54,334 nt of DNA from Planosporangium mesophilum (lineage in GTDB: Bacteria; Actinomycetota; Actinomycetes; Mycobacteriales; Micromonosporaceae), in NCBI RefSeq assembly GCF_016863255.1, contig NZ_BOON01000055.1:1-54334 (forward strand), given 5' to 3'. Below are positions 1,064 to 53,549 of this stretch, piece by piece. The number at the start of each line of letters is the position of its first letter. Position 1 is the stretch's first letter. The notes below the pieces were generated by a model. The model saw nothing but the letters and a program-made list of their open reading frames with translations. It was not told the DNA's origin and did not search any database. Made by a program: the position numbers and the translations under genes.

Positions 1064-1138
1064 ATGGCTCCCAGACCGGTGGTTTCCAGATCCATGGTTT
1101 CCAGATCCATGGTTTCCAGGCCCGTCGTTTCCAGGTCC
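1064..1138 (+). repeat. 15-bp tandem repeat, five units starting at the start codon
   Basis: Units are related to ATGGTTTCCAGATCC. Units two to four are nearly identical (1079-1123), the fifth is diverged, and the first (1064-1078) is the most diverged. The array adds five-residue steps to the N-terminus of the binding protein. Confidence 0.85.
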
Positions 1139-1939
1139 GTCACGCTTGCCGCCGCGATGCTGCTCGCCGTTTCGGCCATCGCGGGCTGCGCGAAGAAGGA
1201 CAGCGGCGCGACGACCGCCGACGGCGTGAAACTGGTGAAGAGCGGAAAGCTCGTGACCTGTACGCACCTGCCGTACCCGCCGTTCCAGTCCAAGGACACC
1301 AGCGGCAAGGTGATCGGCTTCGACGTCGACCTCATCGACCTGACCGCCAAGAAGTTGGGCGTCACCCAGGAGGTCATCGACACCCCGTTCGAGGGAATCA
1401 AGTCCGGTCAGGACCTCAACAGCGGCAAGTGTGACGTGGCGGCGGCCGGCATGACCATCACGGACGCGCGGCGCCAGGTGCTCGACTTCTCCGACCCGTA
1501 CTTCGACGCCACCCAGGCCCTCGCCGTACCGGCGGGCAAGCCGTACAAGTCCCTCGCGGACCTCGCCGGCAAGCGGCTCGGGGTGCAGGGCAACACCACC
1601 GGCGACGAGTACGTCAAGAAGCAGGTCAAGGAGAAGGGCCTCAACATCGAGGTCGTGGCCTACCAGGACCTGGGCTCCGAGCAGCAGGCGCTCGCCACCG
1701 GCCAGATCGAGGCCGCCGTGGGTGACCTGCCGGTCTGGAACGAGTACGTCCGCAACAACCCGGACAAGGTGGTCATCGCCGCCGGGTTCAACACCGGTGA
1801 GCAGTACGGGTTCGCGGTCAAGAAGGGCGGCAACGCCAAGCTGTTGCAGACCGTCAACGAGGCGCTCGCCGAGGCGAAGCGCGACGGCACCTACGACAAG
1901 CTGTACGAGAAGTGGATCGGCGCGAAGCCGGCGGCGTGA
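1064..1939 (+). CDS. Amino-acid ABC transporter substrate-binding lipoprotein
   Basis: About 291 residues. The N-terminus has basic residues, a hydrophobic stretch and a lipobox (AIAGC), so the protein should be lipid-anchored outside the membrane. The rest is a family-3 solute-binding fold: a start like LVTCTHLPYPPFQSKD, then GFDVDLIDLTAKKLG, the GIKSGQDLNSGKCDVAAAGMTI-type block near residue 125, and a C-terminal YDKLYEKWIG. Such proteins bind glutamate, glutamine or other polar amino acids. It overlaps the permease gene by four bases (GTGA). The first 25 codons are five 15-bp tandem units that begin at the ATG itself and encode repeated VSRSM-like residues ahead of the signal peptide. The start lacks a Shine-Dalgarno sequence, which fits leaderless translation. 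Confidence 0.9.
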   Translation: MAPRPVVSRSMVSRSMVSRPVVSRSVTLAAAMLLAVSAIAGCAKKDSGATTADGVKLVKSGKLVTCTHLPYPPFQSKDTSGKVIGFDVDLIDLTAKKLGVTQEVIDTPFEGIKSGQDLNSGKCDVAAAGMTITDARRQVLDFSDPYFDATQALAVPAGKPYKSLADLAGKRLGVQGNTTGDEYVKKQVKEKGLNIEVVAYQDLGSEQQALATGQIEAAVGDLPVWNEYVRNNPDKVVIAAGFNTGEQYGFAVKKGGNAKLLQTVNEALAEAKRDGTYDKLYEKWIGAKPAA

Positions 1940-3675: not shown

Positions 3676-4503
3676 TCAGAAGTAATCGATCCTTGCCCGG
3701 ATGATGTTCGCCGGTAGCGCGGGCTCCCCGTCCACGGGGCTGTCAGGGTTGGGCTTCACGCCGCCCGCGGCGATCTCGTCCAGGACGGCGAGGCCGTTGG
3801 AGTCGACCGTCCCGAAGATGGTGTAGTTCGGCCGCAGCGCGGAGTCGGCGTAGACGAGGAAGAACTGGCTGCCGTTGGTGTCCGGGCCGGCGTTGGCCAT
3901 GGCGAGGACGCCGCGCTTGTACACCTTGCGCGCACCGGTCGGGTCGGTCGGCGCGGGCGGCAGGTCGGTCGGCAGCTCGTCCTTGTACCGGTACCCGGGA
4001 CCGCCCTCGCCGGTGCCGGTCGGGTCGCCGCACTGCAGGACCTTGAGGGTCGGGTACGCGGTGAGCCGGTGACACGGGGTCCGGTCGTAGAACCGGTGCC
4101 TGACCAGGTGCAGGAAGCTCTGCACGGTACAGGGCGCCTCGGCCCGGTCGAGCGTGAGCCCGATGTCGCCGTGGTTGGTCTTCAGGACCGTGTCGACGGT
4201 GCCGCGGTTCAGAGTCCGGCGCGGGTCCGGAGGCAGCGGCACCGGCCGGGCGGCCGGCTCGTCCGGGGTCTCGGTGTACCCGCACGGGCCATGGGTGGTT
4301 CTCGGCGGCGGGGCGCCGCCCCCCGTGGCGGCCGAAGCGTTCCCGCCGGTGGCGGCCGAAGCGTTCCCGCCGGTGGCGGCCGAAGCGTTCCCGCCGGTGG
4401 CGGCCGAAGCCGGGCCGCCCGGGACGACCAGCGCCGTGGCGGCGAGCACTGCAGCGGCCAATACGGTACCTGTCAACGCCGTAGCCGCCATTCTGGAGCG
4501 CAC
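3676..4503 (-). CDS. Secreted cyclophilin-type peptidyl-prolyl isomerase
   Basis: About 275 residues. The GTG start at 4503 has GGGGAGG upstream. A signal peptide (hydrophobic residues 7-27, cleavage near PASAA) leads into a tandem ASAATGGN linker and then a cyclophilin domain from about residue 105. Recognisable blocks are FYDRTPCHRL, CGDPTGTGEGGPGY, VLAMANAGPDTNGSQFF and NYTIFGTV. Cysteines in GPCGYTE, APCTVQ, TPCHR and LQCGDP suggest disulfides in an extracytoplasmic enzyme. It should help fold exported proteins. It is convergent with the ABC transporter. The linker is made of 24-bp tandem repeats, so its length may vary between strains. Confidence 0.88.
   Translation of the reverse strand: MRSRMAATALTGTVLAAAVLAATALVVPGGPASAATGGNASAATGGNASAATGGNASAATGGGAPPPRTTHGPCGYTETPDEPAARPVPLPPDPRRTLNRGTVDTVLKTNHGDIGLTLDRAEAPCTVQSFLHLVRHRFYDRTPCHRLTAYPTLKVLQCGDPTGTGEGGPGYRYKDELPTDLPPAPTDPTGARKVYKRGVLAMANAGPDTNGSQFFLVYADSALRPNYTIFGTVDSNGLAVLDEIAAGGVKPNPDSPVDGEPALPANIIRARIDYF
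4325..4411 (-). repeat. 24-bp tandem repeat in the cyclophilin linker
   Basis: Three full identical units (4325-4396) and a partial fourth encode ASAATGGN steps between signal peptide and catalytic domain. Confidence 0.9.
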
Positions 4504-6012: not shown

Positions 6013-8901
6013 TCACGCCGTGAGGCGGTGACTGGACCCCTGTACCGGTATCAGCAGGGCGGTCGCCTCATCGGCGGTCACCGGGCGGGACATCAGGTAG
6101 CCCTGTCCGGTGCGGCAGCCCAGCTCGATCAGCATCTCCCGCTGCTCCTCGGTCTCGATACCCTCGGCCACGACCCGCAGGTCCAGGGATTCCGCGATGG
6201 CCAGCACGGCCCGCACGATGCTGCGGTCGGCGCTCCCGTCGACCATGCCGGACACGAACGACCGGTCGATCTTCAACCCCTCGATCGGGAACCGCTTCAG
6301 ATACGCGAGACTGCAGTACGACGTACCGAAGTCGTCGAGGGCGAAGTGCGCCCCGGAGGCGCGCAGCGCGGTCGCCCACTGCGTCACGTCGTCGTGGACG
6401 TAGCTGTGCTCGGTGACCTCCAGCCACACGTCCGCCGGCTCCACCCCGGTGTCCCGGATGGCCGCCAGCAGATCCGCCGCCACCTCGGGGCGTCGCAGCT
6501 GAGCCGGGGACACGTTGACGTTGATCCCGAGCGGTCGGCCGGGGAAGCGCTGCTGCCACGACACGAGCTGGCGGCACGCCTGTGCCATCACCCAGCGCCC
6601 GATCTCGACGATGGCGCCGGTCTCCTCCGCGAACGGGATGAACACGTCCGGCCCGATCGGCCCCCGCTCCGGGTGGTGCCACCTCACCAGCGCCTCGAAG
6701 CTGACGATCTCCCCGCTGTCGAGGGCCCAGATGGGCTGGTAGTGGACCGACAGCTGGTTGCGCTCCAGCGCGCGCTGCAGGTCGGAGCGGATGTCGAGGC
6801 GGTCCCGGGAGCGGGTGGAGGCGTCCACGTCGAAGACCTCGACGAGCCCCCGACCGTTCTCCTTCGCCTGGTACATGGCGGCGTCGGCGTCCCTGAGCAT
6901 GTCGCTGGCGGTCGTCTGGCGACGGGTACCGGTGACCCCGCCGACGCTGGCCGACATCTGTACCCACTCGTTTGCGAGCTGGAACGGCTTGTCCAGGGCG
7001 CGCAGCACCCGCCGGCCGACCTCGGTGACCTCCGTCAGGTCGTTCACCCCGTCCAGGACGAACACGAACTCGTCGCCGCCGAAGCGCGCGAGCAGGTCGG
7101 TCGGGCGCAGGCACCGGCTGAGCCGGTCGGTGACCTGCACGAGAAGCTGGTCACCCGCCTCGTGGCCGAGCCGGTCGTTGATCGCCTTGAACTTGTCGAG
7201 GTCGCAGAAGAGCAGGCCGACCTCGGTGATGTCGGGCACGCTGAGCGCCTCGTCGAGGAACTCCCCGACCAGCGCCCGGTTGGCCAGCCCGGTCAGCGGG
7301 TCGTGGGTGGCCCGCTGGCGCAGCTCTTCCTCGAGCCACTTGCGCTCGTCCACGATGCGGGACGAAACCACGATCGAGCCGTCCTCGGACGGCGCGGGGC
7401 GGAGGGCGCTCTCCACCCAGACCAGCGAGCCGTTGCCGTCCCAGACCCGGTACTCCACCTTGGACAATCCGGCCAGCTCTCCCCGGACGGCGCGCACGGA
7501 CTCCAGGTCGTCGAGGTAGATCATGTCCGCCGCCGGCTGGCCGATGAGCGTCGCCGGGTCGTAGCCCAGTTCCCGCGCGTACGACGGTGAGGCGTAGATG
7601 AAACGGTTGTCCGCGTCGATCACCGCGATCATGTCGCTGATCGAATCGGTGATCAGTCGCAGCGACGCCTCGCTGCGCGCGAGCGCCTGGTAGAGCTGTG
7701 CGTTCACCAGGGCCGCACCGAGATAGTTGGCGAAGACGGTGCATACCTCCACCACGTCCGCGAGGAACGGCCGCCGGGCGTCCCGGGCGACGTACAGCAG
7801 GGCGGTCGGGGCGTCGGCCCGCATGACGGGTACGCACAGCACCGCGTGCGATCCGTCCACGCCGTGGTGGGGCTGGCCCTGGACCAGGGTCTCCCAGCCC
7901 GGCAGCTCCACGACGGGCCGCGGCCAACCCGCCGGTACCGGCGACTGTCCCTCCGGTGAGCCCAGCCCCTCCTGTAGCGCCAGCCCCGCCCGCGACCGCA
8001 GCTCGGCCGTGTCCCCGTCGACGACCGCGATCCACGCGCGCTGGGAGCAGGTGAGCTGGTGGAGCAGTTCGGCCGCCTCCGACAGCAGCGGCTCGAGGTC
8101 GAGGTGGCGGGTCAGCCGGGGACCGCACTCGGCCAGCCGCTCGGTGGCTGCGCTGCGCTCGCGGGACCGCAGCGCCAGACACAGCCGGTCCGCCACGGAC
8201 GACAGCACCTGCTGCTCTCCCGAGGTGAACAACTCCTCGGAGCGGCGGTACAGGATGAGCAGCTCGTCCGGGCCGGTCGCGAGCGGGACCCAGGCGGCGG
8301 TGCGCACGCCGAGCGTGGCGAGCGCCGGGGGCAGCTCGACGGAGTGGTCGTAGGCGGCCGCCACGGTACGCCGGTCGGCCAGGGCCGTGCGCGCGGTGTT
8401 GCTGGCGGACCAGCCCTCCGTATGCGCCGGGTCGCCCTCGGTGAGGCCGCACGAACTCTGGATGGTCAGCTTGTCGCCGACCAGCCGGCCGATGCAGACG
8501 ACGTCGGCGGCGAAGACGTCCGAGAGCGTGCTCAGCGTGTCCTCCACCAGGTCGGCGGAGGAGGAGGGCTGGCTGATGACGGTCAGCAGCCGGATCAGGC
8601 GCGTGGTGTCGCGGTACGCCTCCTGCGCGGCGGCGGTCGCGGCCGCCAGCTGGGCCTCCAGCCGCGCGACGCGGACCTCGGCACCGCTCACGGCAGCAGC
8701 ACCGTTCATGGCAGCACCGTTGACGGCAGCACCGTTCATGGGAGCACCGTTCATGGAAGCACCGTTCATGGCAGCACCGTTCATGGCAGCACCGTTCATG
8801 GGAGCACCGTTCATGGAAGCACCGTTCACGCCGGCGTTGCTCACGGCGGCATTGTTCAGGTCGGTACCGCTCACGTCGGAACCATAGACGCTGTGGGTCA
8901 C
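6013..8901 (-). CDS. GAF-GAF-PAS-GGDEF-EAL protein (bifunctional c-di-GMP enzyme candidate)
   Basis: About 962 residues. It starts with a GTG that overlaps the stop of the FIST gene (GTGA). The first 75 residues are MNGA-type repeats. Two GAF-like regions (about 100-245 and 260-400) and a PAS domain (about 415-525, FIYASPSYARELGYDPA) precede the GGDEF domain. The GGDEF motif is intact (RFGGDEF), with an RPTD inhibitory I-site five residues upstream. The EAL domain keeps EALVRW, the NVNVS asparagine, LEVTE, DDFGT, LKIDRSF and AEGIE. Both diguanylate cyclase and phosphodiesterase activity are therefore possible. It is soluble, with no membrane helices. The GAF/PAS modules and the partner FIST protein suggest small-molecule control of c-di-GMP. 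Confidence 0.92.
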   Translation of the reverse strand: MTHSVYGSDVSGTDLNNAAVSNAGVNGASMNGAPMNGAAMNGAAMNGASMNGAPMNGAAVNGAAMNGAAAVSGAEVRVARLEAQLAAATAAAQEAYRDTTRLIRLLTVISQPSSSADLVEDTLSTLSDVFAADVVCIGRLVGDKLTIQSSCGLTEGDPAHTEGWSASNTARTALADRRTVAAAYDHSVELPPALATLGVRTAAWVPLATGPDELLILYRRSEELFTSGEQQVLSSVADRLCLALRSRERSAATERLAECGPRLTRHLDLEPLLSEAAELLHQLTCSQRAWIAVVDGDTAELRSRAGLALQEGLGSPEGQSPVPAGWPRPVVELPGWETLVQGQPHHGVDGSHAVLCVPVMRADAPTALLYVARDARRPFLADVVEVCTVFANYLGAALVNAQLYQALARSEASLRLITDSISDMIAVIDADNRFIYASPSYARELGYDPATLIGQPAADMIYLDDLESVRAVRGELAGLSKVEYRVWDGNGSLVWVESALRPAPSEDGSIVVSSRIVDERKWLEEELRQRATHDPLTGLANRALVGEFLDEALSVPDITEVGLLFCDLDKFKAINDRLGHEAGDQLLVQVTDRLSRCLRPTDLLARFGGDEFVFVLDGVNDLTEVTEVGRRVLRALDKPFQLANEWVQMSASVGGVTGTRRQTTASDMLRDADAAMYQAKENGRGLVEVFDVDASTRSRDRLDIRSDLQRALERNQLSVHYQPIWALDSGEIVSFEALVRWHHPERGPIGPDVFIPFAEETGAIVEIGRWVMAQACRQLVSWQQRFPGRPLGINVNVSPAQLRRPEVAADLLAAIRDTGVEPADVWLEVTEHSYVHDDVTQWATALRASGAHFALDDFGTSYCSLAYLKRFPIEGLKIDRSFVSGMVDGSADRSIVRAVLAIAESLDLRVVAEGIETEEQREMLIELGCRTGQGYLMSRPVTADEATALLIPVQGSSHRLTA
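8696..8830 (-). repeat. 15-bp tandem repeat, nine units (MNGA-type)
   Basis: Nine units of GCAGCACCGTTCATG and close variants (third to fifth residue changes give MNGAA, MNGAP, MNGAS). The order of variants itself recurs, which hints at a second round of duplication in blocks of several units. It lies at the 5-prime end of the GGDEF-EAL gene. Confidence 0.92.
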
Positions 8902-10200: not shown

Positions 10201-12888
10201 TTACAGCGACGGTGACCGGTTGTCGGTCAGGTACGCCTCGACGCGTTCCGCGGGCGCGGGCGCGCCGAACAGGTTGCCCTGTCCGACGTGGCAGCCGGCG
10301 GCCCGTACCGTCTCAAGGTGCGCCTCCGCCTCCAACCCGCAGGCGATGACCTCCAGCCCGAGCCGGTCGGCCAGGCTCATCACCACATCCATGATCGGGG
10401 CGGCCAGCCTGCCGCGGCCGGCCGGCTCGGTGAACAGCGGCCGGTCGACCTTCAAGACGTCGACCGCCATCCGGCGCAGGTGCGCCAGTGACGTGGGGTC
10501 GGTGCCGAAGTGGTCGATCGCGGTACGTACGCCCAGGAGCCGGACCGCGGCGAAGGCGGCCTCCCGAGCATCCGGGGTCGGGCGGTCACCGGTCGCTGTC
10601 TCGGCGACCTCCACCAGTACCCGCCCGGGGGCGACGAGGTGAGCCTCGATCGCACCGCTGAGCGCCGGCACGAAACCGGGTGAGACCAGCTGACGGGCCG
10701 AGACGTTGACCGACAGCCACAGGTCCCAGCCGTCGCGCAGCCATGACGACAACTGGCGGCAGGCCCGGTGGAGCACCCATCTGCTGATCTCGTCGGTCAG
10801 GTCGAGGTCCTCAGCGATCGGGATCAACTCGGCGGGTGGTACCGCACCGAGGCGGGGATGCCGCCAGCGCAGCAGCGCCTCCGCTCCAACGGCCCTGCGG
10901 TGGGTCAGCTCGAGCACCGGCTGGTACACCAGGTCCAGCTCACCGCGGTCGATCGCGCCGGGCAGTTCCTGCTCCACGGCCATCCGGCGCAGCAGCGCCG
11001 ACTCCATCGACTTGTCGTACCACTCGACAGAGCCGCGACCGGTGCGCTTGGCCCGCAGCAGCGCGAGGTCGGCCCAGCGCAGCACCTCGTCGACGCCGGT
11101 CGCCCCGGCCACCTCGGCCAGCCCGACCATGGCGGACAGGTGCGCGGTGACGCCGGGAAGCCGGTACGGCTCGCTGAGCACCGTGACCAGTCGACTCGCC
11201 AGCGCGTACGCCAGGATGGAGCCGGCCGGGGTCAGCACGGCGAACTGGTCGCCGGCCAGCCGCGCGGGCAGGTCCCCGGTGTCGAGGCCGGACCGCAGCC
11301 GGCGGCCGAGCTCGATGAGGACCGCGTCGCCGAACTCGCGCCCGTGCAGATCGTTGAGGACCGTCAAGCCGTCCGGCTCGATGATGAGAACGGCGCCGGC
11401 CGGCTCCCGCGCCGAGCGGGCCGCGGCGACTGCGCGCAGCAGCTCACGCCGGTTGGCAAGCCCGGTCAACTGGTCGGTGAAGGCCATCTGGTGCAGCGTG
11501 CGCTCCATCGCACGCCGGTCACCGATGTCGCGGATGTGCACGACGAACGCGGCCACCTCCGGGGTGGAGCGCAGGTCACTGAGGGTCGACTCGGTGTCGC
11601 GCCACCGGCCGTACCCGTCGCGCAGCCGGGCCTCGAGCAGCGACGGCTGCGCTTTGTCAGGGGGCGCGGAGACCTTACCGGGTGCGGAGAGCCAGTCCAC
11701 GACTCGCGCGGCATCCTCGGGGTGCAGCATCGCGGTGAACGGACGGTTGACGACGTCCTGTTCGGACAGCGCGAACTGGCGGGCCGCCGCGGGCGACAGC
11801 CAGCGGACCACGAGGTCGGTGTCGATGACGACGGTCACGTCGCGCGAACCGGCGACCAGGGAGCGGAAGTGCGCCTCCCGACCGGCCAGGCGCCTCGCGT
11901 ACCGCCGGACGGCGAGCGCCGCCAGCGCCTCACGGACCGCCAGCGCGGCGACGGCCGTCAACCCGAGCACGATCGCGCTGCGATCCGGCACACCGCCGCC
12001 GGTGACCACCAGGTACGCCGTGGCCAGCAGCGCGGCGCCGATGGGCGGCGCGAGCAGCGGGTACCCGGCGAAGGATCCGTCCGCGTCGGCGGGGTTCGGC
12101 TCGCGGGGCTCGGCGCGACGGGCACCCTCCGCCGCCAGCGCCGGGCCGGCGACCAGGGCCGCCGCTGCCAGCCAGGTCGCCGCACCCGGCGTGAGACCGG
12201 CGGCGACCAGCCCTGCCAGCCCGGCGATCGACAATGCGGTACCACCGCTGCAGGCGAGCGCGGCGGTACGGTACCGGGCGGCGCGGAGGCCGGTGATGAG
12301 CGCGACGGACGCGGCGGCGCAGCTGATGAGGCCGGCCAGGAAGGTACGAGGGCCTCCGCCACCGTGCGGTGCCAGGACCAGCAGCCAGGCGATGTAGAAC
12401 AGGCAGGTGCCGACGGCAACCCCGTCGAGCAGTCGTTGCAGCCGGGCAGCCGGGGTGGCCGCCGCCCCGGGCAGCATGAGCAACCCCGTCAGTTGGACCC
12501 CGACCGCCACCAGGAACCCGGCGAAGCCGAGGCGGCCGGTGAGCCCGGCCGGGTACCCGGCAAGGCCGACGACGGTGCAACCGCCGGCCAGCAGGCCGAG
12601 GCCGAGCAGGCCGGCACCGCGGCACGGGCCGAGGCCGCGACTCCCCCGGTGGATTGCCAGGGCGACGCGGACGAGCCGGGTGGCGTGTGCGGCGACCGAC
12701 ACGCCGACGGCCGACGCGACGGCGGCGACGGTCGGCAACCCGCCGGTCAGCCCGGCGACGAGCAGCACGGCAGCCGCCACGGTCGGCATGATCGCCATGG
12801 CCGGCATGATCGCCATGGCCGGCATGATCGCCATGGCCGGCACGGTCGCGCGGGCCCTGCGCAGGGCTCGGGCCAGCTCAGATGACAC
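10201..12888 (-). CDS. Membrane PAS-GGDEF-EAL protein with degenerate catalytic motifs
   Basis: About 895 residues. The GTG at 12888 has AGGAGG seven bases upstream, a better start than 12921. The N-terminus carries an MAIMPA repeat and then about eight to ten hydrophobic segments to about residue 300. A PAS domain (about 330-450) is followed by a GGDEF-like domain in which the signature is AGDQF. The EAL domain keeps EALLRW and VLKVD, but DDFG has become DHFG and the AEGVE glutamate is replaced (ACGLE). Several metal and catalytic residues are therefore missing from both domains. I infer a c-di-GMP receptor or scaffold rather than an enzyme. It lies 52 bases upstream of the FIST gene on the same strand and may head that operon. 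Confidence 0.88.
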   Translation of the reverse strand: MSSELARALRRARATVPAMAIMPAMAIMPAMAIMPTVAAAVLLVAGLTGGLPTVAAVASAVGVSVAAHATRLVRVALAIHRGSRGLGPCRGAGLLGLGLLAGGCTVVGLAGYPAGLTGRLGFAGFLVAVGVQLTGLLMLPGAAATPAARLQRLLDGVAVGTCLFYIAWLLVLAPHGGGGPRTFLAGLISCAAASVALITGLRAARYRTAALACSGGTALSIAGLAGLVAAGLTPGAATWLAAAALVAGPALAAEGARRAEPREPNPADADGSFAGYPLLAPPIGAALLATAYLVVTGGGVPDRSAIVLGLTAVAALAVREALAALAVRRYARRLAGREAHFRSLVAGSRDVTVVIDTDLVVRWLSPAAARQFALSEQDVVNRPFTAMLHPEDAARVVDWLSAPGKVSAPPDKAQPSLLEARLRDGYGRWRDTESTLSDLRSTPEVAAFVVHIRDIGDRRAMERTLHQMAFTDQLTGLANRRELLRAVAAARSAREPAGAVLIIEPDGLTVLNDLHGREFGDAVLIELGRRLRSGLDTGDLPARLAGDQFAVLTPAGSILAYALASRLVTVLSEPYRLPGVTAHLSAMVGLAEVAGATGVDEVLRWADLALLRAKRTGRGSVEWYDKSMESALLRRMAVEQELPGAIDRGELDLVYQPVLELTHRRAVGAEALLRWRHPRLGAVPPAELIPIAEDLDLTDEISRWVLHRACRQLSSWLRDGWDLWLSVNVSARQLVSPGFVPALSGAIEAHLVAPGRVLVEVAETATGDRPTPDAREAAFAAVRLLGVRTAIDHFGTDPTSLAHLRRMAVDVLKVDRPLFTEPAGRGRLAAPIMDVVMSLADRLGLEVIACGLEAEAHLETVRAAGCHVGQGNLFGAPAPAERVEAYLTDNRSPSL
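12787..12840 (-). repeat. 18-bp tandem repeat, three units
   Basis: Three identical CATGATCGCCATGGCCGG units encode the MAIMPA steps at the N-terminus of the degenerate GGDEF-EAL protein. Confidence 0.92.
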
Positions 12889-15649: not shown

Positions 15650-15666
15650 GCGCGGCGGGTACCTGA
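15633..15666 (+). repeat. Perfect 17-bp tandem duplication spanning a stop codon
   Basis: GCGCGGCGGGTACCTGA occurs twice without a gap. The first copy ends with the real stop codon (15647-15649). The second lies in the intergenic space. Confidence 0.92.
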
Positions 15667-15690
15667 GCGAAGGTCTCCCGGCCAACGGGT

Positions 15691-17718: not shown

Positions 17719-17750
17719 CCCCGCAACGCCGTGACCCCGCAACACCGTGA
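17703..17750 (+). repeat. 16-bp tandem repeat, three units, first contains the stop codon
   Basis: Units CCCCGCAACACCGTGA with single changes (17703-17718, 17719-17734, 17735-17750). The TGA ending the LCP gene is the end of unit one, and each later unit also carries TGA. Confidence 0.92.
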
Positions 17751-17784
17751 CCCAGCCGCCCCTGACCGTTGGTACTGTCCCGGC

Positions 17785-22160: not shown

Positions 22161-22169
22161 CGGCGCCCC

Positions 22170-22229
22170 GCTTTCAGGCGTTCTGCTTGCAGGCGCTCCG
22201 CTTCCAGGCACTCCCGCTTCCGGCGCCCG
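22170..22229 (+). repeat. Degenerate 15-bp tandem repeat, about four units
   Basis: Units of the type GCTTTCAGGCGTTCT with several changes each lie just after the stop of the TPM gene (stop ends at 22160). More diverged than other arrays in the window. Confidence 0.6.
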
Positions 22230-27034: not shown

Positions 27035-27343
27035 CTCGCCATCCCTCGTCCGTCGACCGATTCGACAGACTTCCCATCGACGGGCGAAACGGCGGGATGA
27101 GAACAAATGCCAGATTCGGATTCCGCCCGCCCGGGCCAGGGCGGCAGGCCTGCGCGGGCTGGTGGCTCGACTCTTCCGATCCGGGAGAATTCGGCACCAC
27201 CATCGGTGCGCGACTCTCCCATGGCCGCGACTCTCCAATGGCTGCGACTCTCCAATGTCACCGGAGGGCACCGGGTACGCCCTGCACCCGTTCTACCACC
27301 GGATCGCTGCCCACCCGCCACCACTGGTCCGTACAACTGGATC
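27035..27343. other. Divergent intergenic region, MCP / GGDEF-EAL
   Basis: 309 bases without a supported gene. It holds the MCP ribosome binding site and a 17-bp tandem repeat (27210-27260). I see no clear sigma70 or FliA-type promoter and no known riboswitch. Confidence 0.5.
27210..27260 (+). repeat. 17-bp tandem repeat, three units, intergenic
   Basis: GCGACTCTCCAATGGCT-type units at 27210-27226, 27227-27243 and 27244-27260. The unit length is not a multiple of three, which supports placing the start of the following gene downstream. Confidence 0.9.
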
Positions 27344-44424: not shown

Positions 44425-44460
44425 GCACTGAGCGATCCTCAGGTGCTGAGCGATCCTCAG
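44425..44460 (-). repeat. 18-bp tandem repeat, two units at the end of fmdB
   Basis: GCACTGAGCGATCCTCAG and GTGCTGAGCGATCCTCAG. On the minus strand the TGA stop of the fmdB-like gene (44457-44459) lies in one unit; the other lies beyond it with the same TGA. Confidence 0.88.
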
Positions 44461-44705
44461 GTGCGACCCGGTTCTCGGGACCTCGCCGGCACGCTCGACA
44501 CCACCTCGGGCGTCTCCGCGCTTCGCCACGACGCGTCGATGGCGGCCGCCAGGGCAGGTGGCGTCCGCGCGAGCGATGGCGGGGAGAAGACCCGGCGGGC
44601 GTCGCAGCCGCAGGTGGGACAGGGCGAACTGGCGGTCGCCGTACCGATCGCGAACCTCAGCTCGAAGTCGCCGTCCCACGGGCACCGGTATCCGTACGTC
44701 GCCAC
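44457..44705 (-). CDS. fmdB: FmdB-family zinc-ribbon protein, one Cys missing
   Basis: About 82 residues. Starts V-ATYGYRCPWDGDFE, where relatives have two cysteines (C-x-x-C): here the second is Asp. The second pair CPTCG is intact. FmdB proteins are small putative regulators or chaperones for formamidase genes; their exact role is unclear. The loss of one of four zinc ligands could weaken metal binding. GTG at 44705 with GAGGAGG upstream. It precedes fmdA. Confidence 0.85.
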   Translation of the reverse strand: MATYGYRCPWDGDFELRFAIGTATASSPCPTCGCDARRVFSPPSLARTPPALAAAIDASWRSAETPEVVSSVPARSREPGRT

Positions 44706-44894: not shown

Positions 44895-45779
44895 TCACCG
44901 TTTCCGGGGCGTACCGGCCTCGCGGGCGCTCAGCCACTCGGTGAAATCCCGGGCCACGACGCGTTCGTCGGTGACGCCGTCCGCGGCCGGCGAGCACAGC
45001 CAGCGGATCGGCGCCGCCATGACCGAGGCGTCGAGCATCTGCTCGCGCAACTCCTCCGGTACGTCGTCGGGGATCATTCCGGTGCGGGTGGCCCCGCCGG
45101 GCAGGAGCACGTTCACCCATACCGAGTGCTCACGCAGATCGGCCGCCATGACCCGGGACAGGGCCTCCGATCCGGCCCGGGACGGGCCGTACGGCGCGAA
45201 ACCCTTGCGGACCATGGTCTCCTGATTGAGCGAGACGTTGACGATCCGGCCGCCCCCGGCGGCGAAGAACGCCGGTACGACCTCCCGGGCGACCAGGAAG
45301 TACCCGGTGAGGTTGGTGTCGATCACGTCCCGGAAGCCGGCGGGCGTAACCTCCCAGAATCCACGCGGTTCGGTGAAGAACCCCGGGTTGACCGTCCGCA
45401 TGCCGATCCCGGCGTTGTTGACGAGTACGTCCAGACCGCCCAGATCGTCGAGGACCTGACGGACACCGTCGGCCACCGAGCGCTCGTCGCGGACATCCAT
45501 CGCGATGCCCCTGACCCGCCCACGACCGGCGTCGATCGACTCGGCGGCCTCGGCCGTCCGGTCCGCGTCCCGGCCGGTGATGACCACCCTCGCCCCGCCG
45601 TCGGCCAGGGCCTGCGCCATTGATCGCCCGAGTCCGCTGGTCGCTCCCGTCACCAGAACCCGTACGCCGGCGACGGATGCGTCCGCATCGCTGTCAGGGT
45701 TGGTCGCTGAATTATGCGCGGTCGCTGAGTTATGCGTGGTCGCTGAGTTGTGCGTGGTCGCTGAGTTATGCGTGGTCAC
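44895..45779 (-). CDS. Short-chain dehydrogenase with YxxxR active site
   Basis: About 294 residues. TGATSGLG, NNAG and the catalytic region NVSLNQET ... YGPSR are seen. The usual catalytic Lys of YxxxK is Arg. This is rare and may change or abolish activity. The first 25 residues are four TTHNSA-type repeats (18-bp units) of no obvious function, and the frame begins with a GTG that is part of the repeat; the real start may be downstream near residue 36 (VAGVRVLVTG). Not linked to neighbours in function that I can see. Confidence 0.78.
   Translation of the reverse strand: MTTHNSATTHNSATTHNSATAHNSATNPDSDADASVAGVRVLVTGATSGLGRSMAQALADGGARVVITGRDADRTAEAAESIDAGRGRVRGIAMDVRDERSVADGVRQVLDDLGGLDVLVNNAGIGMRTVNPGFFTEPRGFWEVTPAGFRDVIDTNLTGYFLVAREVVPAFFAAGGGRIVNVSLNQETMVRKGFAPYGPSRAGSEALSRVMAADLREHSVWVNVLLPGGATRTGMIPDDVPEELREQMLDASVMAAPIRWLCSPAADGVTDERVVARDFTEWLSAREAGTPRKR
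45702..45779 (-). repeat. 18-bp tandem repeat, four units plus partial
   Basis: GGTCGCTGAGTTATGCGT with small changes, encoding THNSAT steps at the N-terminus of the SDR. The partial unit at 45774-45779 supplies the GTG start codon. Confidence 0.92.
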
Positions 45780-45865
45780 TGGTCAACCCCGGTTCTCGTC
45801 CACGGATACGGGCGGGTTCGGCTCCTGACGTTACGCCGGCACGCTCCGCCGGCAGCTTGCGACGG

Positions 45866-47121: not shown

Positions 47122-47589
47122 GTGCACAAGCCCATTGACAATGGATCGCCACGGCACGCCGAGAATCCGGGCCGTCTCCGCCGCGGTGCAGGACTGCGCC
47201 TGTTCGCGGTGCTGGCGTTCGCGGTACTGGCGTTGGGCGCTACCGGCGGGGTCGCCTCGGCCCAGGAGGATGATCCTTCGGGATCGCCGTCGGCGGCCAC
47301 GATGCCGACGGCGTCGTCGCCCGCACCCACGCAGTCGCCGTTCCCGACGGCGTCGTCACCGGCACCGACGCAGTCCCCGACACCGACCCCGACACCGACC
47401 ACCCCGACACCGACACCGACCCCGACACCGACCACCCCGGCCCCGACACCCACCGGCGCGCCCGTGACCGGTGGTGGCGGTACGGCAGGGGCCGGCAACA
47501 ACCTCGTGACGCCGCTGAGCGCGCTGGCCCTCGTGGCGATCGCGGGCGGTATCGCCCTGACGAGGCGACACCGGCTGACGGATGAATGA
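47122..47589 (+). CDS. Pro/Thr-rich wall-anchored protein (class F sortase substrate candidate)
   Basis: About 155 residues. A GTG at 47122 after AGGGGG gives a signal peptide (cleavage near SAQ, residue 48). A long Pro/Thr/Ser stretch of degenerate 39-bp and 12-bp repeats follows, as in wall-spanning stalks. The C-terminus has APVTG (an LPxTG-like motif with the first residue changed), GGGG, a hydrophobic helix (about 135-150) and RRHRL. This is a sortase sorting signal in outline. Its stop overlaps the start of the sortase gene by eight bases. It has no folded domain, so it may display a short epitope or act as a spacer. Confidence 0.72.
   Translation: MHKPIDNGSPRHAENPGRLRRGAGLRLFAVLAFAVLALGATGGVASAQEDDPSGSPSAATMPTASSPAPTQSPFPTASSPAPTQSPTPTPTPTTPTPTPTPTPTTPAPTPTGAPVTGGGGTAGAGNNLVTPLSALALVAIAGGIALTRRHRLTDE
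47308..47385 (+). repeat. 39-bp tandem repeat, two diverged units
   Basis: ACGGCGTCGTC begins each unit at 47308 and 47347; the encoded pieces are TASSPAPTQSP-type steps of the stalk. Followed by CCGACACCGACC repeats to about 47450. Confidence 0.7.
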
Positions 47590-48261: not shown

Positions 48262-48303
48262 GCAGCCGGTTCGGAGCAGCCGGTTCGGAGCAGCCGGTTC
48301 AGA
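48262..48303 (-). repeat. 14-bp tandem repeat, three units around the LLM stop codon
   Basis: GCAGCCGGTTCGGA at 48262-48275 and 48276-48289; a third copy (48290-48303) with G to A at 48301 supplies the TGA stop of the minus-strand oxidoreductase. Confidence 0.9.
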
Positions 48304-49186
48304 GCAACTCTCGGACGGCATCCAGAACCCGCCAGTGCCGGTCGAAGTCCTCGCGGTCGTCGGCGTCGAAGTCGTCGCTGTCCAGGACGAGATGCGTCGG
48401 GTTGAGCGAGCGCAGCCGGTGCAGGTCGTCGGAGATCTGGTGCAGGTCGCCCTCTCCGGTACGGCGCGCGGCCTCCGGTACCGCCCGGTCCCTCAATCTG
48501 ATCTTGACCCGTGGCGCCAGCGCTGGTACGTCTCGCCCCACGTTCACGGCGGCCTGCCGCAGCAGCGGTAGGCCCTCGTGCTCCAGCCAGCCCACGTTGA
48601 CGTCGAGGGGGTGCCACGCCGTACCGAAGCGCACCGCGCGGCGGATCGCCGGCCAGCTCTGGCCGCCGACCCAGATCGGCGGATACGGGCGCTGTACCGG
48701 CAGCGGACCGGTGTGCACCTCGGCGAACGAGACGTACTCGCCTTCGAACGACGCGACCTCGTGGGTCCACGTCGTGATCATGGCTGCCAGGTACTCGTCG
48801 GTGAGCCGGCCGCGCTGTTCGAACGGTACGGACAGCGCCCGGTACTCCTCGGCCGCCCAGCCGGTGCCCACTCCGAAGATCAACCGACCGCCGCTCAGCT
48901 GGTCCAGGTTCGCCACCATCCGCGCGGTCAGGAGCGGGTGGCGGTAAGGCACGATGGCCACGGTGGTGCCGAGCTCGAGCCTGGTGATGGGCGCCAGCCA
49001 GGCCAGCGCGGTGAACGGTTCGTAGAACGGCGTGGGGTAGACGGCGTACACGTCGGGGGTCACGGCGACGTGGTCGGAGAGCATCGCGATGTCGAAGCCG
49101 GCGCTCTCCGCCCGCGCGGCCCAGGCCCGCAGGCTGTCCGGGCCGGCCGGGGCACCGAAGTTGACGACGTTCACGCCGAGCTTCAT
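48299..49186 (-). CDS. LLM-class F420-dependent oxidoreductase (TIGR03619-like)
   Basis: About 295 residues. MKLGVNVVNFGAPAGPDSL, AESAGFDIAMLSDH, the GGRLIFGVGTGWAAEEY block and DLHQISDDLHRL at the end fit this F420 family. Length normal. ATG at 49186 has GGAG seven bases upstream. Substrate not predictable. The stop codon is inside the third 14-bp repeat. Convergent with the sortase gene. Confidence 0.9.
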   Translation of the reverse strand: MKLGVNVVNFGAPAGPDSLRAWAARAESAGFDIAMLSDHVAVTPDVYAVYPTPFYEPFTALAWLAPITRLELGTTVAIVPYRHPLLTARMVANLDQLSGGRLIFGVGTGWAAEEYRALSVPFEQRGRLTDEYLAAMITTWTHEVASFEGEYVSFAEVHTGPLPVQRPYPPIWVGGQSWPAIRRAVRFGTAWHPLDVNVGWLEHEGLPLLRQAAVNVGRDVPALAPRVKIRLRDRAVPEAARRTGEGDLHQISDDLHRLRSLNPTHLVLDSDDFDADDREDFDRHWRVLDAVRELL

Positions 49187-49534: not shown

Positions 49535-50215
49535 ATGGAGCGAGCACCGTTGTCCGACGCCCTGCTGTCCGACACCCTGTTGTCCGACGCCCTGTTGTCC
49601 GACACCCTGTTGTCAGCCGCCGTGGCGGCGCCCGGTTTCATGCCCGACGACGAGGGCCTTGCCCTGTACCAGGCCGCGCTGGCCGTCACGGCCGACGGCC
49701 CGCTGCTGGAGGTCGGCAGCTACCTCGGCAAGTCGACGCTGTACCTGGCCGCGGCCGCCCGGGAGCGCGGTACCCAGGTCGTCACCGTCGACCACCACCG
49801 CGGCTCCGAGGAGCACCAGCCCGGCTGGGAGTACCACGACCCGGACCTGGTCGACCCGCAGGCCGGCCGGATCGACACGCTGCCCGGCTTCCGCCGTACC
49901 ATCGCCGCCGCCGACGCGGAGGACCTGGTGGTCGCGGTCGTGGCCCGGTCCGAGACCCTGGCCGCGCTGTGGCAGCGGCCCGTCGCGTTCGTCTTCCTCG
50001 ACGGCAGCCACACCGACGAGTCCGCCCAACGTGACCTCGCCTGCTGGACCCCGCACCTGACGGTCGGCGGCGTCCTCGCCATCCACGACGTCTTCCCCGA
50101 CCCCGCCGACGGCGGCCAGGCACCGTACCGCGTCTATCTGAAGGCCATGGCCTCCGGCGCGTTCACCGAACTGCCCGGCTGCGGTTCGCTGCGGCTACTG
50201 CGCCGCGGCCGCTGA
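49535..50215 (+). CDS. Class I SAM-dependent methyltransferase (Methyltransf_24 type)
   Basis: About 226 residues. After a LLSDA/LLSDT repeat (15-bp units) the domain starts near residue 45 with LLEVGSYLGKSTLYLAAAARE (SAM loop), then VVTVDHHRGSEEHQPG, VAFVFLDGSHTDESAQRDL and GGVLAIHDVFPD. The last two are typical of small-molecule O-methyltransferase-like proteins. It faces the toroid-methyltransferase-glycosyltransferase operon tail to tail, and may act on the same product. Confidence 0.85.
   Translation: MERAPLSDALLSDTLLSDALLSDTLLSAAVAAPGFMPDDEGLALYQAALAVTADGPLLEVGSYLGKSTLYLAAAARERGTQVVTVDHHRGSEEHQPGWEYHDPDLVDPQAGRIDTLPGFRRTIAAADAEDLVVAVVARSETLAALWQRPVAFVFLDGSHTDESAQRDLACWTPHLTVGGVLAIHDVFPDPADGGQAPYRVYLKAMASGAFTELPGCGSLRLLRRGR
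49550..49617 (+). repeat. 15-bp tandem repeat, four and a half units
   Basis: TTGTCCGACGCCCTG and TTGTCCGACACCCTG alternate, encoding LSDAL and LSDTL. Confidence 0.92.
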
Positions 50216-50263
50216 TTCCTACCGCGGCGTCTTCCTACCGCGGCGTCCTCCTACCGCGGCGTC
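50216..50263. repeat. 16-bp tandem repeat, three units between convergent genes
   Basis: TTCCTACCGCGGCGTC at 50216-50231 and 50232-50247, with a first-base change at 50248-50263. It fills the whole gap between the methyltransferase stop and the toroid gene stop; a partial fourth copy carries the latter. Confidence 0.92.
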
Positions 50264-51376
50264 CTACTGCGGTTCGGCTGCGCCCCGGGTTTCAGTCACG
50301 CCTTTCCCGACAGCGCCGCAGCGCAGTTCGGGTGGGCACACGCCGCCGATCTCGACGCCCACGGGCAGGTCGGTACCCCGGAAGATCCCGCTTCTGGGGT
50401 GCGCGCCGTGCAGCGCGTCCACGGCGAGTACGACCGCCGCGCCGGTCCAGGTGGTCCGCTCCACCGGCCAGCGGACGTGGTCGTCGAGGACCAGCCCGGT
50501 CCAGTACGACCCGTCGTCCTCGCGCAGGTGCTGCATCGCGGCGACGACCTCGGCCGCCGCGTCCGGCTCGCCCACCGCGTCCAGGGCGAGGGCCAGCTCG
50601 CAGGTCTCGGCCCCGGTCACCCAGGGACGGTCGGCGACGCAGCGCGCACCCATCCCCGGTACCACGAACTCGTGCCACCGCTGCCGCAGCCGGTCCCGTC
50701 CGTCGTCGCCGCGGACCGGGCCGCCGAGCACCGGGTAGTACCAGTCCATCGAGTAGCGCGCCTTGTCCGCGAAGGCCTCCGGGTGGTGGCGTACCGCGTG
50801 GGCCAGCCAACCGGCGGCCAACTCCCAGTCCGGCTGGGGGTCGCCGAGCCGGTCGGCGATCGCAACCCCGCAGCGCAGCGCCTGGTAGATGCTGGAGCAT
50901 CCGGTCAGCAGCGCGACCCGGTCGCTCGCGCCGGCCCCGTCGACGGCCCACCACACCGCACCGGACGCGGCCTGCTGGCCGACGACGAAGTCCAGGGCGC
51001 GCCGGACCGTCGGCCACATCCGGGCCAGGAACGCCTCGTCGCCGCTCGCCAGCCAGTGGTGCCAGCAGCCGACCGCCACGTACGCGCTGTGGTTGGTCTC
51101 CCCGATCGGATCGGCGACGACCCCCTGACGGTACCGTGACGCCCAGGTACCGTCGGGCCGCTGGGCATGGCGCAGCCAGTCGTACGCGGCGCGCGCCGCT
51201 TCCGGCCGGCCGCCCACGTCCAGCGCCATCGCGGCCTCGACGTGGTCCCACGGGTCGACCTCGCCGCCGGGGAACCAGGGGATGGCACCGGACGGCTCCT
51301 GGGCGGCGGCGATGCTCGCCACCGTGGCGAGGACCGCGTCGGCGGTGAGCACACCGGGCAGTTCGGGGACCGTCAT
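50264..51376 (-). CDS. Prenyltransferase/squalene-cyclase-like alpha/alpha-toroid protein
   Basis: About 370 residues. Helical pairs with repeated QxxDGxW-type motifs: AAQEPSGAIPWF, HAQRPDGTWASRY, LREDDGSYWTG. Such domains occur in terpene cyclases and protein prenyltransferases; catalytic Asp motifs are not obvious. Exact role unknown, perhaps glycan- or lipid-binding. ATG at 51376 overlaps the stop of the methyltransferase gene (ATGA). It is last of the three-gene minus-strand operon with GT4 and methyltransferase. Confidence 0.78.
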   Translation of the reverse strand: MTVPELPGVLTADAVLATVASIAAAQEPSGAIPWFPGGEVDPWDHVEAAMALDVGGRPEAARAAYDWLRHAQRPDGTWASRYRQGVVADPIGETNHSAYVAVGCWHHWLASGDEAFLARMWPTVRRALDFVVGQQAASGAVWWAVDGAGASDRVALLTGCSSIYQALRCGVAIADRLGDPQPDWELAAGWLAHAVRHHPEAFADKARYSMDWYYPVLGGPVRGDDGRDRLRQRWHEFVVPGMGARCVADRPWVTGAETCELALALDAVGEPDAAAEVVAAMQHLREDDGSYWTGLVLDDHVRWPVERTTWTGAAVVLAVDALHGAHPRSGIFRGTDLPVGVEIGGVCPPELRCGAVGKGVTETRGAAEPQ

Positions 51377-52152
51377 CGCCGGCTGCTCGCCGGCACTTCG
51401 TCGACGGCCAGCCGGTCCTCGGCCGGATTCTGGTCCGCAGTCACGGTGTCGCGGCGCAGGTACAGCACGACGCTCTTGCCGATGACCGGGTTGAGCCCGC
51501 GCTCCAGCGTCCGGGTCAGCCAGGGACGAGCGGTGATGTCCCAGACCAGTAGGCGGTGGTAAGCCCGTACGACCGCCGCGTCCCGGTCGGTGCCGACCGC
51601 GCACTTGAGCCACCAGTACGGGCTGTGCAGGGCGTGCGCGTACCCCTTGCCCGTCACGGTCAGTCCGGCCGCAGTCAGCTTCCCGGCCAGCTCGTGGGCG
51701 CGGTAGATCCGTACGTGGCCGCCCTCGTTGGCGTGGTACTCGTCGGACAGCGCCCAGCACACCCGCTCCGGGAACCAGCGCGGCACCGTGACGGCGGCCA
51801 GCCCGCCGGGCCGGAGCACCCGGGTCAGCTCCGCCATGGCGGCGGTGTCGTCGGGGATGTGCTCGAGGACCTCGGAGGCGATGATCCGGTCGAAGCTGTG
51901 GTCCGGGAACGGCAGTCGCAGCAGGTCGCCGCGGACCGCGGTGGCCGTCGCGCCGGCCGGCGCCTCGCCGGCAAGCTCCATCGCCCCGAGCCACTCCCGG
52001 GTGGTGGCGAGGTCGCGGGCGTTCAGGTCGAGCGCGACGACGTGGGCGCCGCGCCGGTACGCCTCGAAGGAGTGGCGGCCCTCCCCACAGCCCAGGTCGA
52101 GGACCCGCATCCCCGGCCGTACGTCGAGCCGGTCGTAGTCGATGGTCAGCAC
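51373..52152 (-). CDS. Class I SAM-dependent methyltransferase (Methyltransf_11 type)
   Basis: About 259 residues. VLDLGCGEGRHSFEAYRRGAH, the ALDLN acidic strand, LPFPDHSFDRIIASEVLEHI and LRPGGLAAVTVP identify the SAM fold. The C-terminal half has HVRIYRAHELAGKLTAAGL and a SPYWWLKC stretch. GTG at 52152 with GGAGG upstream; seven-base overlap with the glycosyltransferase. Substrate unknown, perhaps the product of the glycosyltransferase. Confidence 0.9.
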   Translation of the reverse strand: MLTIDYDRLDVRPGMRVLDLGCGEGRHSFEAYRRGAHVVALDLNARDLATTREWLGAMELAGEAPAGATATAVRGDLLRLPFPDHSFDRIIASEVLEHIPDDTAAMAELTRVLRPGGLAAVTVPRWFPERVCWALSDEYHANEGGHVRIYRAHELAGKLTAAGLTVTGKGYAHALHSPYWWLKCAVGTDRDAAVVRAYHRLLVWDITARPWLTRTLERGLNPVIGKSVVLYLRRDTVTADQNPAEDRLAVDEVPASSRR

Positions 52153-53549
52153 ACGGTCCCCGTTCCTCCGGCCGCGGCGGTCGGTTCGGCCGCGACCACC
52201 TCGCCTCTGGTCGCCTCGCCTCTGGTCGCCGCGACCCCGGTCGCCTCGGCCGCGATCGCCTCGGCGTACCACTCGGCGGTGAGCGTGGCGGTGCGGCGCC
52301 ACGTGAAGCGCTCCACCACCCGGCTGCGGCCGGCGGCGCCCAGCCGCTGCCGCAGCGGGGCGTCGTCGAGAAGCCGGCCCACCGCGCCGGCCAGGGCGTC
52401 GGGATCGCCAGCCGGTACGTGCAGCGCCGCGTGCCCGTCCGGGCCGGCCACCTCGGGCAACGCCCCCGCCGTGGTGACGACGAGCGGCGTGCCGCAGGCC
52501 ATCGCCTCGACCGCCGGCAGCGAGAACCCCTCGTACCGGGAGGGCACGACCGCCACCTGGGCAGACCGGAACAGGTCGGCCAGCTCCCCGTCTGATAGGC
52601 CGGAGACGAACCGCACGGTGCCGGCCAGGCCCAGCCGGTTGATGGTCCGGTCGGCCGCGCCGCCGGGGCGCAGGGTACCGACCACGACCAGCGCGACCGG
52701 CCGCTCGGTACGTAGCTTCGCCACCGCCTCGATGAGGTCGTCGAGCCCCTTGAGTGGCACGTCCGCGCTGGCGACGGTCACGATCCGGCCGGCGACTCGG
52801 GCTTGCTCACCGACCGGGCGGAAGGTCTCCTCGTCGACGCCGACGCCGATGACCCGCAGGCGCTCGGGCGCGACCCCGAACGCCTGGACGATCTCGTCCT
52901 TCGACGCGTCCGAGACGGTGGTGATCCACTCCATTCGGCGGGCGACGCGGCCCTGCATCCGGCAGAACGCGTACCAGCGGCGCAGGGACAGCCGCCGCTG
53001 CCAGGTGCTCGCGGCGGCCAGTTCCAGGTCGCGGTCGACCGTGATGGGATGGTGGATGGTGGCGACGACGGGGACGCCGCGCCCGGGCAGCCGGATCTCT
53101 CGCCGACCCAGCCCTCGCCGGCCCAGCCCCCGCAGGCCCAGCCCCCGCAGGCCCAGCAGCCCGTAGCCGAGGCTCTGGTTGTCGTGGACGACGTCGAACT
53201 CGGACAACCGGCGGCGCAGGTGCGACCAGGCGCGCAGGGAGAAGGTCAGCGGCTCGGGGAACGCGCCGGTACACATGGCGGTCCACTCCAGAACGTCCAC
53301 TGCGGAGCGGAACTCCGACAGGCGCGGCGCGCGGAACGGGTCCGGCTCGCGGTAGAGGTCCAGACTGGGCAGGCAGGTCAGCCGGACGCCGTCGTCCAGG
53401 ACGGGTAGCGGCGGGCCGGAGAAGACCTCGACGTGGTGGCCCAGCCGTACCAGCTCTCGGGACAGGTGACGGACGTAGATGCCCTGGCCGCCGCTGTGGG
53501 GCTTGCTCCGGTAGGACAGCAGGGCCACGCGCAGTGGGGCCTGGGTCAC
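52146..53549 (-). CDS. GT4-family glycosyltransferase
   Basis: About 467 residues, GT-B fold. N-terminal RVALLSYRSKPHSGGQGIYV and ELVRLGHHVEVFSG, then the C-terminal nucleotide-sugar lobe with VASADVPLKGLDDLIEAV, PSRYEGFSLPAVEAMACGTP and a conserved EGF..E motif. A retaining transferase, sugar donor unknown. GTG start directly downstream (six bases) of TAGGGT, suggesting leaderless translation. The middle has a GLRGLGLRGLG repeat and the C-terminus an ATRGE repeat, both made by 15-bp units. Confidence 0.9.
   Translation of the reverse strand: MTQAPLRVALLSYRSKPHSGGQGIYVRHLSRELVRLGHHVEVFSGPPLPVLDDGVRLTCLPSLDLYREPDPFRAPRLSEFRSAVDVLEWTAMCTGAFPEPLTFSLRAWSHLRRRLSEFDVVHDNQSLGYGLLGLRGLGLRGLGRRGLGRREIRLPGRGVPVVATIHHPITVDRDLELAAASTWQRRLSLRRWYAFCRMQGRVARRMEWITTVSDASKDEIVQAFGVAPERLRVIGVGVDEETFRPVGEQARVAGRIVTVASADVPLKGLDDLIEAVAKLRTERPVALVVVGTLRPGGAADRTINRLGLAGTVRFVSGLSDGELADLFRSAQVAVVPSRYEGFSLPAVEAMACGTPLVVTTAGALPEVAGPDGHAALHVPAGDPDALAGAVGRLLDDAPLRQRLGAAGRSRVVERFTWRRTATLTAEWYAEAIAAEATGVAATRGEATRGEVVAAEPTAAAGGTGTVC
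52200..52229 (-). repeat. 15-bp tandem repeat, two units, end of GT4 gene
   Basis: CTCGCCTCTGGTCGC twice, encoding ATRGE steps. Confidence 0.85.
53106..53165 (-). repeat. 15-bp tandem repeat, about four units, inside GT4 gene
   Basis: GCCCAGCCCCCGCAG (53121-53135 and 53136-53150 identical, flanking copies diverged) encodes LRGLG steps in the linker before the strand VPVVATIHHP. Confidence 0.88.

Follow-up and report, generated by a model that had tools for sequence, protein, structure and literature searches.

VNTR or minisatellite loci are short head-to-tail arrays that occur both in and between genes and are used for strain typing, and the mycobacterial MIRU elements, which form a single sequence family, are found at gene junctions, where some overlap stop or start codons. 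The arrays analyzed here lie in a window of 54,334 nt, positions 1-54,334 (forward strand) of contig NZ_BOON01000055.1 from Planosporangium mesophilum (GCF_016863255.1), with genes called by a home-made codon-usage caller. They resemble VNTR loci in being short, arranged head to tail and both genic and intergenic, and MIRU in their gene-junction sites, some of them on stop or start codons, but differ from MIRU in that their units have no common sequence.

Tandem repeats are also pervasive in Borgs, archaeal elements whose arrays, in the parts of the report drawn on here (PMC9879509), consist of short units that are divisible by three in coding sequence, may begin in the end of an ORF, carry flanking partial repeats, evolve rapidly and encode amino acid repeats that often fall in disordered regions. 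The arrays of P. mesophilum are like them in their pervasive short units, coding units mostly divisible by three, starts within ORF ends, flanking partial repeats, rapid evolution and amino acid repeats. Borg units are described in the same parts as A-rich and perfect, on AT-rich linear extrachromosomal elements, whereas the array bases here belong to a bacterial genome, are 70.5% GC and 14.3% A, and often form imperfect copies. The prokaryotic satellites of Subirana and Messeguer, as presented in the portions of their work considered (PMC6749651, PMC8161180), share with our arrays a species-dependent density, varied units and many genic lengths that are multiples of three, but the unit length here is broad and of no fixed size, as opposed to the constant 20-21 or 52 nt unit of a non-coding satellite class in Bacillus. 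Among the literature matches listed, the titles and abstract openings include none on short stop-spanning duplications and none on Micromonosporaceae tandem repeats, which is no proof of absence. The window arrays are a clear case of a known kind of repeat, and not a new system.

Abundance of tandem arrays in the window and the family

Small head-to-tail DNA duplications are numerous in the soil actinomycete P. mesophilum and its relatives. A TRF census (score of at least 60, period 9-60, calls merged) returned 25 arrays in the 54.3 kb window, 17 of them with a score of at least 80, as compared to a mean of about 0.4 arrays per 54 kb in five dinucleotide shuffles; codon-order shuffles of the called genes yielded 0.2 arrays against 12 in the real sequence. 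Density is thus far above both shuffled controls, and head-to-tail copies exceed chance, as expected of slippage-born minisatellites. All 20 of the arrays listed in the original prediction coincide with a TRF array to within 12 bases, with units that can be read in the sequence itself. The 14-18 bp unit size that it had singled out is not supported as special, because units need to be about 15 bp long before two copies reach the score limit, and window units span 14 to 39 bp. Coding arrays largely survive synonymous shuffling (in the G000 stretches, 45 of 65 on average), so this shuffle cannot tell repetition at the DNA level from repetition at the protein level.

Within its own genome the window belongs to the upper tail, with 46 versus 13 arrays per 100 kb. 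We reject lineage-specific DNA as the cause of this excess, since the syntenic backbone, delimited by hand, holds 9 arrays in 20.0 kb and the other 34.3 kb hold 16, which amounts to about equal density. A conserved hot locus is likewise rejected, given that the syntenic contig G001:C34, with 15 arrays in its 85 kb, is close to the average of G001; as a counterpoint, the syntenic contig G003:C147 has 6 arrays in 17.7 kb. Arrays were present in 35 of 38 sampled stretches of a 6.6 Mb bacterial genome. In a comparison set with one genome per species, density per 100 kb is 13.0 in the rest of the P. mesophilum genome, 11.2-22.2 in sister species and 3.3-42.0 in other family members, relatives ranging overall from 2.5 to 42 in the sampled stretches, and E. 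coli K-12 shows one array in 100 kb. The process is therefore not peculiar to this organism, as had been supposed, for densities in relatives lie on both sides of its own, which agrees in part with the outcome that the original prediction named as refuting it. Along the G004 chromosome, density follows no clear trend with position when judged by eye.

Reading frame and position of the arrays

Within called genes, the unit is divisible by three in 250 of 266 arrays (pooled, sampled sets), as opposed to all coding units in the Borg material considered (PMC9879509). The idea that coding units are all multiples of three hence stands as a strong majority, with an exception in the window itself: a weak 23-bp array at 4792 (80% match, score 60) within a called gene. 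On the minus strand, a cyclophilin-type gene (3676-4449) has a 24-bp array of 3.6 perfect copies in its N-terminal part (4325..4410), a 15-bp array of 8.9 copies (8696..8828) encodes the N-terminal NGAxM-type pentapeptide tail of a GGDEF-EAL protein (6013-8901), and a second GGDEF-EAL gene (10201-12888) holds an 18-bp array of 3.8 copies in its N-terminal part (12775..12842). Two arrays lie within the gene for a group-1 glycosyltransferase (52146-53549), a 15/30-bp one in its 3' part (52178..52260, minus strand) and a 15-bp one of 3.4 copies (53107..53157, minus strand). On the plus strand, 15-bp arrays lie within gene 12995-15649 (13265..13302, 2.5 copies) and a strictosidine-synthase-like gene, 35186-36286 (35419..35480, 4.1 copies), and 39- and 33-bp arrays (47305..47454) encode a Pro/Thr-rich stretch of ORF 47101-47589, which adjoins a sortase gene (47582-48256). 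The 15/30-bp array at 49549..49621 (plus strand) encodes N-terminal LSDAL/LSDTL repeats of a methyltransferase (49535 or 49550 to 50215); it need not begin at the start codon, as first read, given an in-frame ATG 15 bp upstream at 49535.

Other arrays adjoin gene starts. A 15-bp array of 5.1 copies (1062..1138, plus strand) lies 5' of the gene for a family-3 solute-binding protein, called as 1157-1939, and an open frame crosses it into that gene. On the minus strand, a 15-bp array of 3.1 copies (23565..23611) is in frame with a PaaX-family gene whose true start is uncertain and whose upstream reading repeats the motif PQSLKPQSL, a 27-bp array of 1.9 copies (30377..30427) crosses the start called for a TetR-family gene (29796-30401), and an 18-bp array of 4.5 copies (45701..45781) would give a short-chain dehydrogenase with its start at 45779 a tail of THNSAT hexapeptides.

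As had been predicted, the window arrays with units of 14, 16 and 17 bp all span stop codons or are intergenic. The stop is contained in the first copy of the 17-bp array of 2.2 perfect copies at the end of 12995-15649 (15633..15669, plus strand), of the 16-bp array of 3.1 copies at the end of an LCP-family gene, 16483-17718 (17705..17753, plus strand), of the 14-bp array of 3.2 copies at the end of a luciferase-like gene, 48299-49186 (48262..48306, minus strand), and of the 16-bp array of 3.1 copies that spans the stop of 50264-51376 in a convergent gap (50217..50265, minus strand). A 17-bp array of 2.9 copies (27209..27257, no strand assigned) falls in the gap between the divergent genes 25460-27034 (minus) and 27344-29731 (plus). 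Among units that are multiples of three, a 15-bp array of 4.3 copies (22162..22226, plus strand) lies immediately 3' of the stop of 21150-22160, and an 18-bp array of 2.1 copies (44428..44464, no strand assigned) sits in the gap that forms the 5' flank of an acetamidase/formamidase gene (43106-44356).

The frame filter is lost across stop codons, where 23 of 69 arrays have units that are multiples of three, the one third expected without frame constraint. The stop lies within the first copy in 59 of these 69 arrays, and in 43 of the 46 whose unit is not a multiple of three, so that the protein end is left unchanged. In the nine sets pooled for position (G007 left out), arrays span 66 of 1923 stops versus 10 of 1923 starts, with coverage that peaks immediately 3' of stops and is low at starts, and they take up 0.95% of coding bases, 4.2% of intergenic bases, 8.6% of convergent gaps and 2.4% of divergent gaps; in G004, 21% of convergent-gap bases fall within tandem arrays. 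From start to stop, coding arrays are distributed over gene deciles as 25, 23, 25, 27, 20, 16, 28, 27, 43 and 32 in the sampled genomes (9, 8, 7, 7, 9, 2, 6, 5, 11 and 9 in G000 alone), a mild enrichment in the last two deciles (75 of 266). The placement of arrays at gene ends thus holds strongly just after the stop codon, and within genes as a mild bias to one end. The proposed diversification of protein ends applies to in-frame terminal arrays, several of which build repetitive N-terminal tails in the window, but not to those that span a stop and leave the protein as it is.

Multiples of three are over-represented among arrays called intergenic (17 of 32 in convergent gaps, 83 of 149 overall), and the figures of 33% across stops but 55-56% in called gaps compare with 14-38% for Borg intergenic units in the parts of that report drawn on here (PMC9879509). 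A coding reading, which fits 4 of the 7 window arrays of this class, does not fully resolve the excess, and a coding-likeness test of the flanks left it unsettled.

Origin of the duplications

We consider it likely that the window arrays are the product of recurrent short tandem duplication followed by purifying selection. The local nature of the process, as originally put forward, is supported by the finding that 23 of the 25 arrays match nothing else in about 1.6 Mb of genus sequence, and by differences between species at all four window loci that can be aligned with sister species. The counterpart of the 4325 array in the sister G003, at the homologous place, is weaker and has a 26-bp unit in 2.3 copies; no array is found at the homologous places of 12775 (G003), 17705 (a single copy in G001 and G003) and 22162 (G001 and G003). 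Each array would represent an independent tandem duplication of local sequence, arising through strand misalignment in DNA synthesis that may be primed in part by pre-existing short direct repeats, and copies would then be gained or lost through further slippage. Such copies would be retained only where selection tolerates them, that is, as whole codons in genes, in gaps, and freely across or just after stops, where the first copy would still terminate the protein. Selection, rather than targeting, would then be the cause of the array pattern, and slippage its presumable molecular step.

Junction homology of at least 4 nt is seen in 37% of isolated perfect two-copy duplications (n=62, after a longer-array filter removed 119 of 181) versus 4.8% of 5623 in the local null, an excess that points to slippage between short direct repeats for part of the duplications. 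The effect is uneven between genomes, at 57% of 23 in G004, 38% of 13 in G000, 29% of 7 in G002 and 23% of 13 in G001, with none among the 6 duplications of the other genomes pooled. Direct-repeat slippage cannot account for all duplications, since 39 of the 62 show a near-chance homology of 0-3 nt. These 39 cases, together with the Ku gene present in G000, would fit end joining (Ku/LigD), in which the filling in of staggered breaks makes duplications without junction homology. However, the 37% with longer homology argue against this route, and Ku is carried both by the array-rich G004 and by the array-poor G007 and G031, so that array density among these genomes does not follow the presence of Ku; we regard end joining as unlikely.

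The enrichment of arrays after stops and in convergent gaps might also be expected of duplicated transcription terminators kept for their function, and folding is indeed somewhat better for the array class than for random segments (at stops, mean z -2.02 versus -0.93). Yet the array-bearing 3' flanks tested (16 in G000, 18 in G001 and 47 in G004) are on average no more hairpin-like than array-free flanks of the same genomes, with mean z of -0.56 versus -1.39 in G000, -1.30 versus -2.43 in G001 and -0.97 versus -1.08 in G004, although in G004 only they are lower in mean energy (-28.2 versus -24.5) and median z (-1.03 versus -0.67). Terminator duplication is accordingly rejected as improbable. 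An organism-specific system that deliberately alters protein ends could draw on the repetitive N-terminal tails and on the mild enrichment in the last two deciles, but it is hard to reconcile with the unchanged protein in 59 of 69 stop-spanning arrays, the same pattern in related genera and the absence of a sequence common to the units, and we find it improbable. Location at gene ends and between genes is a trait that the arrays have in common with members of a spreading MIRU-like or REP-like family. Yet copies at different loci share no sequence, for 23 of the 25 nothing similar occurs at other places of the sampled genus sequence, and the window contains no Rfam family at gathering score. 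This source is rejected as extremely improbable, in keeping with the original prediction that unit sequences which differ do not belong to a spreading element.

Local duplication filtered by purifying selection makes the window arrays a clean natural record of both processes, in which the frame filter within genes, its loss across stops and the functional stop in the first copy are visible in the sequence itself. It is conceivable, if rather doubtful, that in some Micromonosporaceae (the window locus, Dactylosporangium and, above all, the complete genome G004) tandem duplication of 12-30 bp proceeds at a heritably elevated rate, as the result of a lineage-specific change in a protein of replication or repair, and would steadily rewrite 3' untranslated regions and add repetitive N-terminal tails. 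More generally, the spread of 3-42 arrays per 100 kb among genera of a single family makes the genetic cause of the duplication rate amenable to comparative and mutation-accumulation tests.

Tandem arrays in the window

The assembly of Planosporangium mesophilum (6.62 Mb, 103 contigs, completeness 98.55%), one entire contig of which (C55) forms the window, was analyzed beside three more genomes of its genus. Each of the 20 places listed in the original prediction carries an array called by TRF, and the window as a whole contains 25 arrays in 54.3 kb, or 46 per 100 kb (merged score >= 60, period 9-60); dinucleotide-shuffled versions yield 0.7 per 100 kb (five shuffles). Perfect duplications with a period of at least 12 number 14 in the window and none in one shuffle, and 12 arrays lie within called genes, versus a mean of 0.2 after codon-order shuffling. 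As predicted, the arrays are not a spreading element, since 23 of the 25 show no recurrence elsewhere in the sampled genus sequence. Among other features of the window, the stretch 47101-48256 contains a sortase gene and, adjoining it, an ORF whose protein is rich in Pro and Thr and has a C-terminal hydrophobic segment; another contig of this genome (C46) has a region 76% identical to window 46926-48249. The tRNA-His call of ARAGORN at 19100-19188, inside a ROK-family gene and on its strand, is probably false.

Reading frame and gene ends

Units divisible by three make up 250 of the 266 arrays within genes in the pooled sampled sets, confirming the frame filter proposed for coding sequence. 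This filter is common to the window and family arrays and to Borg tandem repeats, for which one report (PMC9879509) describes frame-filtered coding units and arrays beginning in ORF ends, flanked by partial repeats; prokaryotic satellites have also been surveyed, in two earlier studies (PMC6749651, PMC8161180). The window arrays belong to this known kind of tandem repeat.

Among arrays spanning a stop codon (69 gene ends in seven sets, an array common to convergent genes being counted twice), 23 are multiples of three, the value predicted without frame constraint, and the stop codon sits in the first copy in 59 of the 69 cases and in 43 of the 46 with units not divisible by three. A duplication over a stop codon leaves the protein unchanged, the first copy still ending translation, and would thus be the least likely to be removed. 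The position profile agrees with this notion: arrays cover 5.0-5.4% of the 50 nt that follow stops, compared with 2.3% of the last 25 nt upstream of them and 0.6% of the 25 nt directly downstream of starts; arrays cross the stop in 66 of 1923 genes and the start, whose calls are less sure, in 10 of 1923; and coverage reaches 8.6% in convergent, 4.3% in same-direction and 2.4% in divergent gaps. Across genomes, position within genes is nearly even, the last two deciles being slightly favoured (75 of 266 coding arrays).

The suggestion that arrays diversify protein ends holds for some in-frame arrays, but is at odds with the prevalence of first-copy stops. A GGDEF-EAL protein is extended by NGAxM repeats and a methyltransferase gains LSDxL repeats from in-frame arrays, PQSLK is repeated in the same way in a PaaX-like regulator, and THNSAT repeats are added to a short-chain dehydrogenase if its start is at 45779. 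N-terminal arrays are probably under-counted, because 56 arrays classed as intergenic sit in an open in-frame gene extension, and 36 of these are multiples of three. More generally, multiples of three are too many among called intergenic arrays (83 of 149 over all sets), most strongly in P. mesophilum (24 of 31, window and other stretches). Mis-called starts and low-complexity genes account for at least part of this excess, since four of the seven such arrays in the window (23565, 45701, 47305 and 47377) read as coding; mis-called starts do not account for all of it.

Origin of the duplications

Four window loci (4325, 12775, 17705 and 22162) are alignable with sister sequence; alignment is poor at 44428. 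The array at 17705, across the stop codon of an LCP-family gene (16483-17718, + strand), is a single copy with the same stop codon in sister genomes G001 and G003. At 22162 the gene end joins a conserved stretch directly in these two sisters, the window having 65 bp of repeats between, and in the third sister, G002, the preceding gene is different. The stretch following this lineage-specific array (22233-22471, ~240 bp) is 76-80% conserved in sisters; no Rfam match was found in the window, this stretch included. G003 has no array at 12775; at 4325 its array is weaker and has a 26-bp unit in 2.3 copies, compared with 24 bp and 3.6 copies in the window.

When 62 isolated perfect two-copy duplications were compared with local control positions, the match ran at least 4 nt past the unit in 37%, versus 4.8% of controls, and mean junction homology was 3.6 versus 1.0. 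Homology of at least 4 nt is most frequent in G004, a complete Micromonosporaceae genome (57% of 23), and reaches 38% of 13 in P. mesophilum; the six duplications from other genomes do not show the effect. This excess favours slippage between short direct repeats as the putative origin of a part of the duplications; the remaining ones have little or no junction homology.

Array density across genomes

The window is 3.5 times as dense in arrays as the rest of its genome, where 38 other stretches (759 kb) hold 99 arrays, or 13.0 per 100 kb. An over-dispersed count model fitted to these stretches gives the array count of the window a chance of 0.005 and its count of perfect duplications one of 0.002 (~1e-7 and 5e-8 under a plain Poisson model). 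The genome contains about 120 windows of this 54-kb size and the present one was selected for its repeats; hence, it may simply be the extreme of its genome's distribution. Seven contiguous 40-60 kb blocks elsewhere hold 1 to 15 arrays each, and the excess is about equal by synteny (9 arrays in 20.0 syntenic kb, 16 in the other 34.3 kb).

In a non-random sample of stretches picked by size and position of contigs, arrays per 100 kb number 18.2 in G001, 11.2 in G002, 22.2 in G003 (45 kb only) and 42.0 in G004 (193 in 460 kb; L138-L140 and L198-L217), where arrays cover 9.2% of all intergenic sequence and 21% of that in convergent gaps. Further sampled genomes give 20.0 (G006), 3.3 (G007), 10.0 (G013) and 11.2 (G018, G021 and G024 pooled). 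At 80 loci flanking the LCP gene, likewise non-random and each at most ~11 kb, densities per 100 kb are 34 in Dactylosporangium (seven loci), 27 in Nucisporomicrobium and 18 in Virgisporangium (one locus each), 8.4 in Micromonospora, 7.7 in Asanoa, 6.4 in Actinoplanes and 4.5 in Phytohabitans. Five genomes from other families of the order range from 2.5 to 17.5 per 100 kb, and E. coli K-12 has 1 array in 100 kb. The arrays had been taken to reflect a property of this organism, a view not supported by their presence in relatives and the variation in density across the sampled genomes. Hence, the densities in sister, family and order genomes establish the arrays as a shared and variable property, not an organism-specific one.
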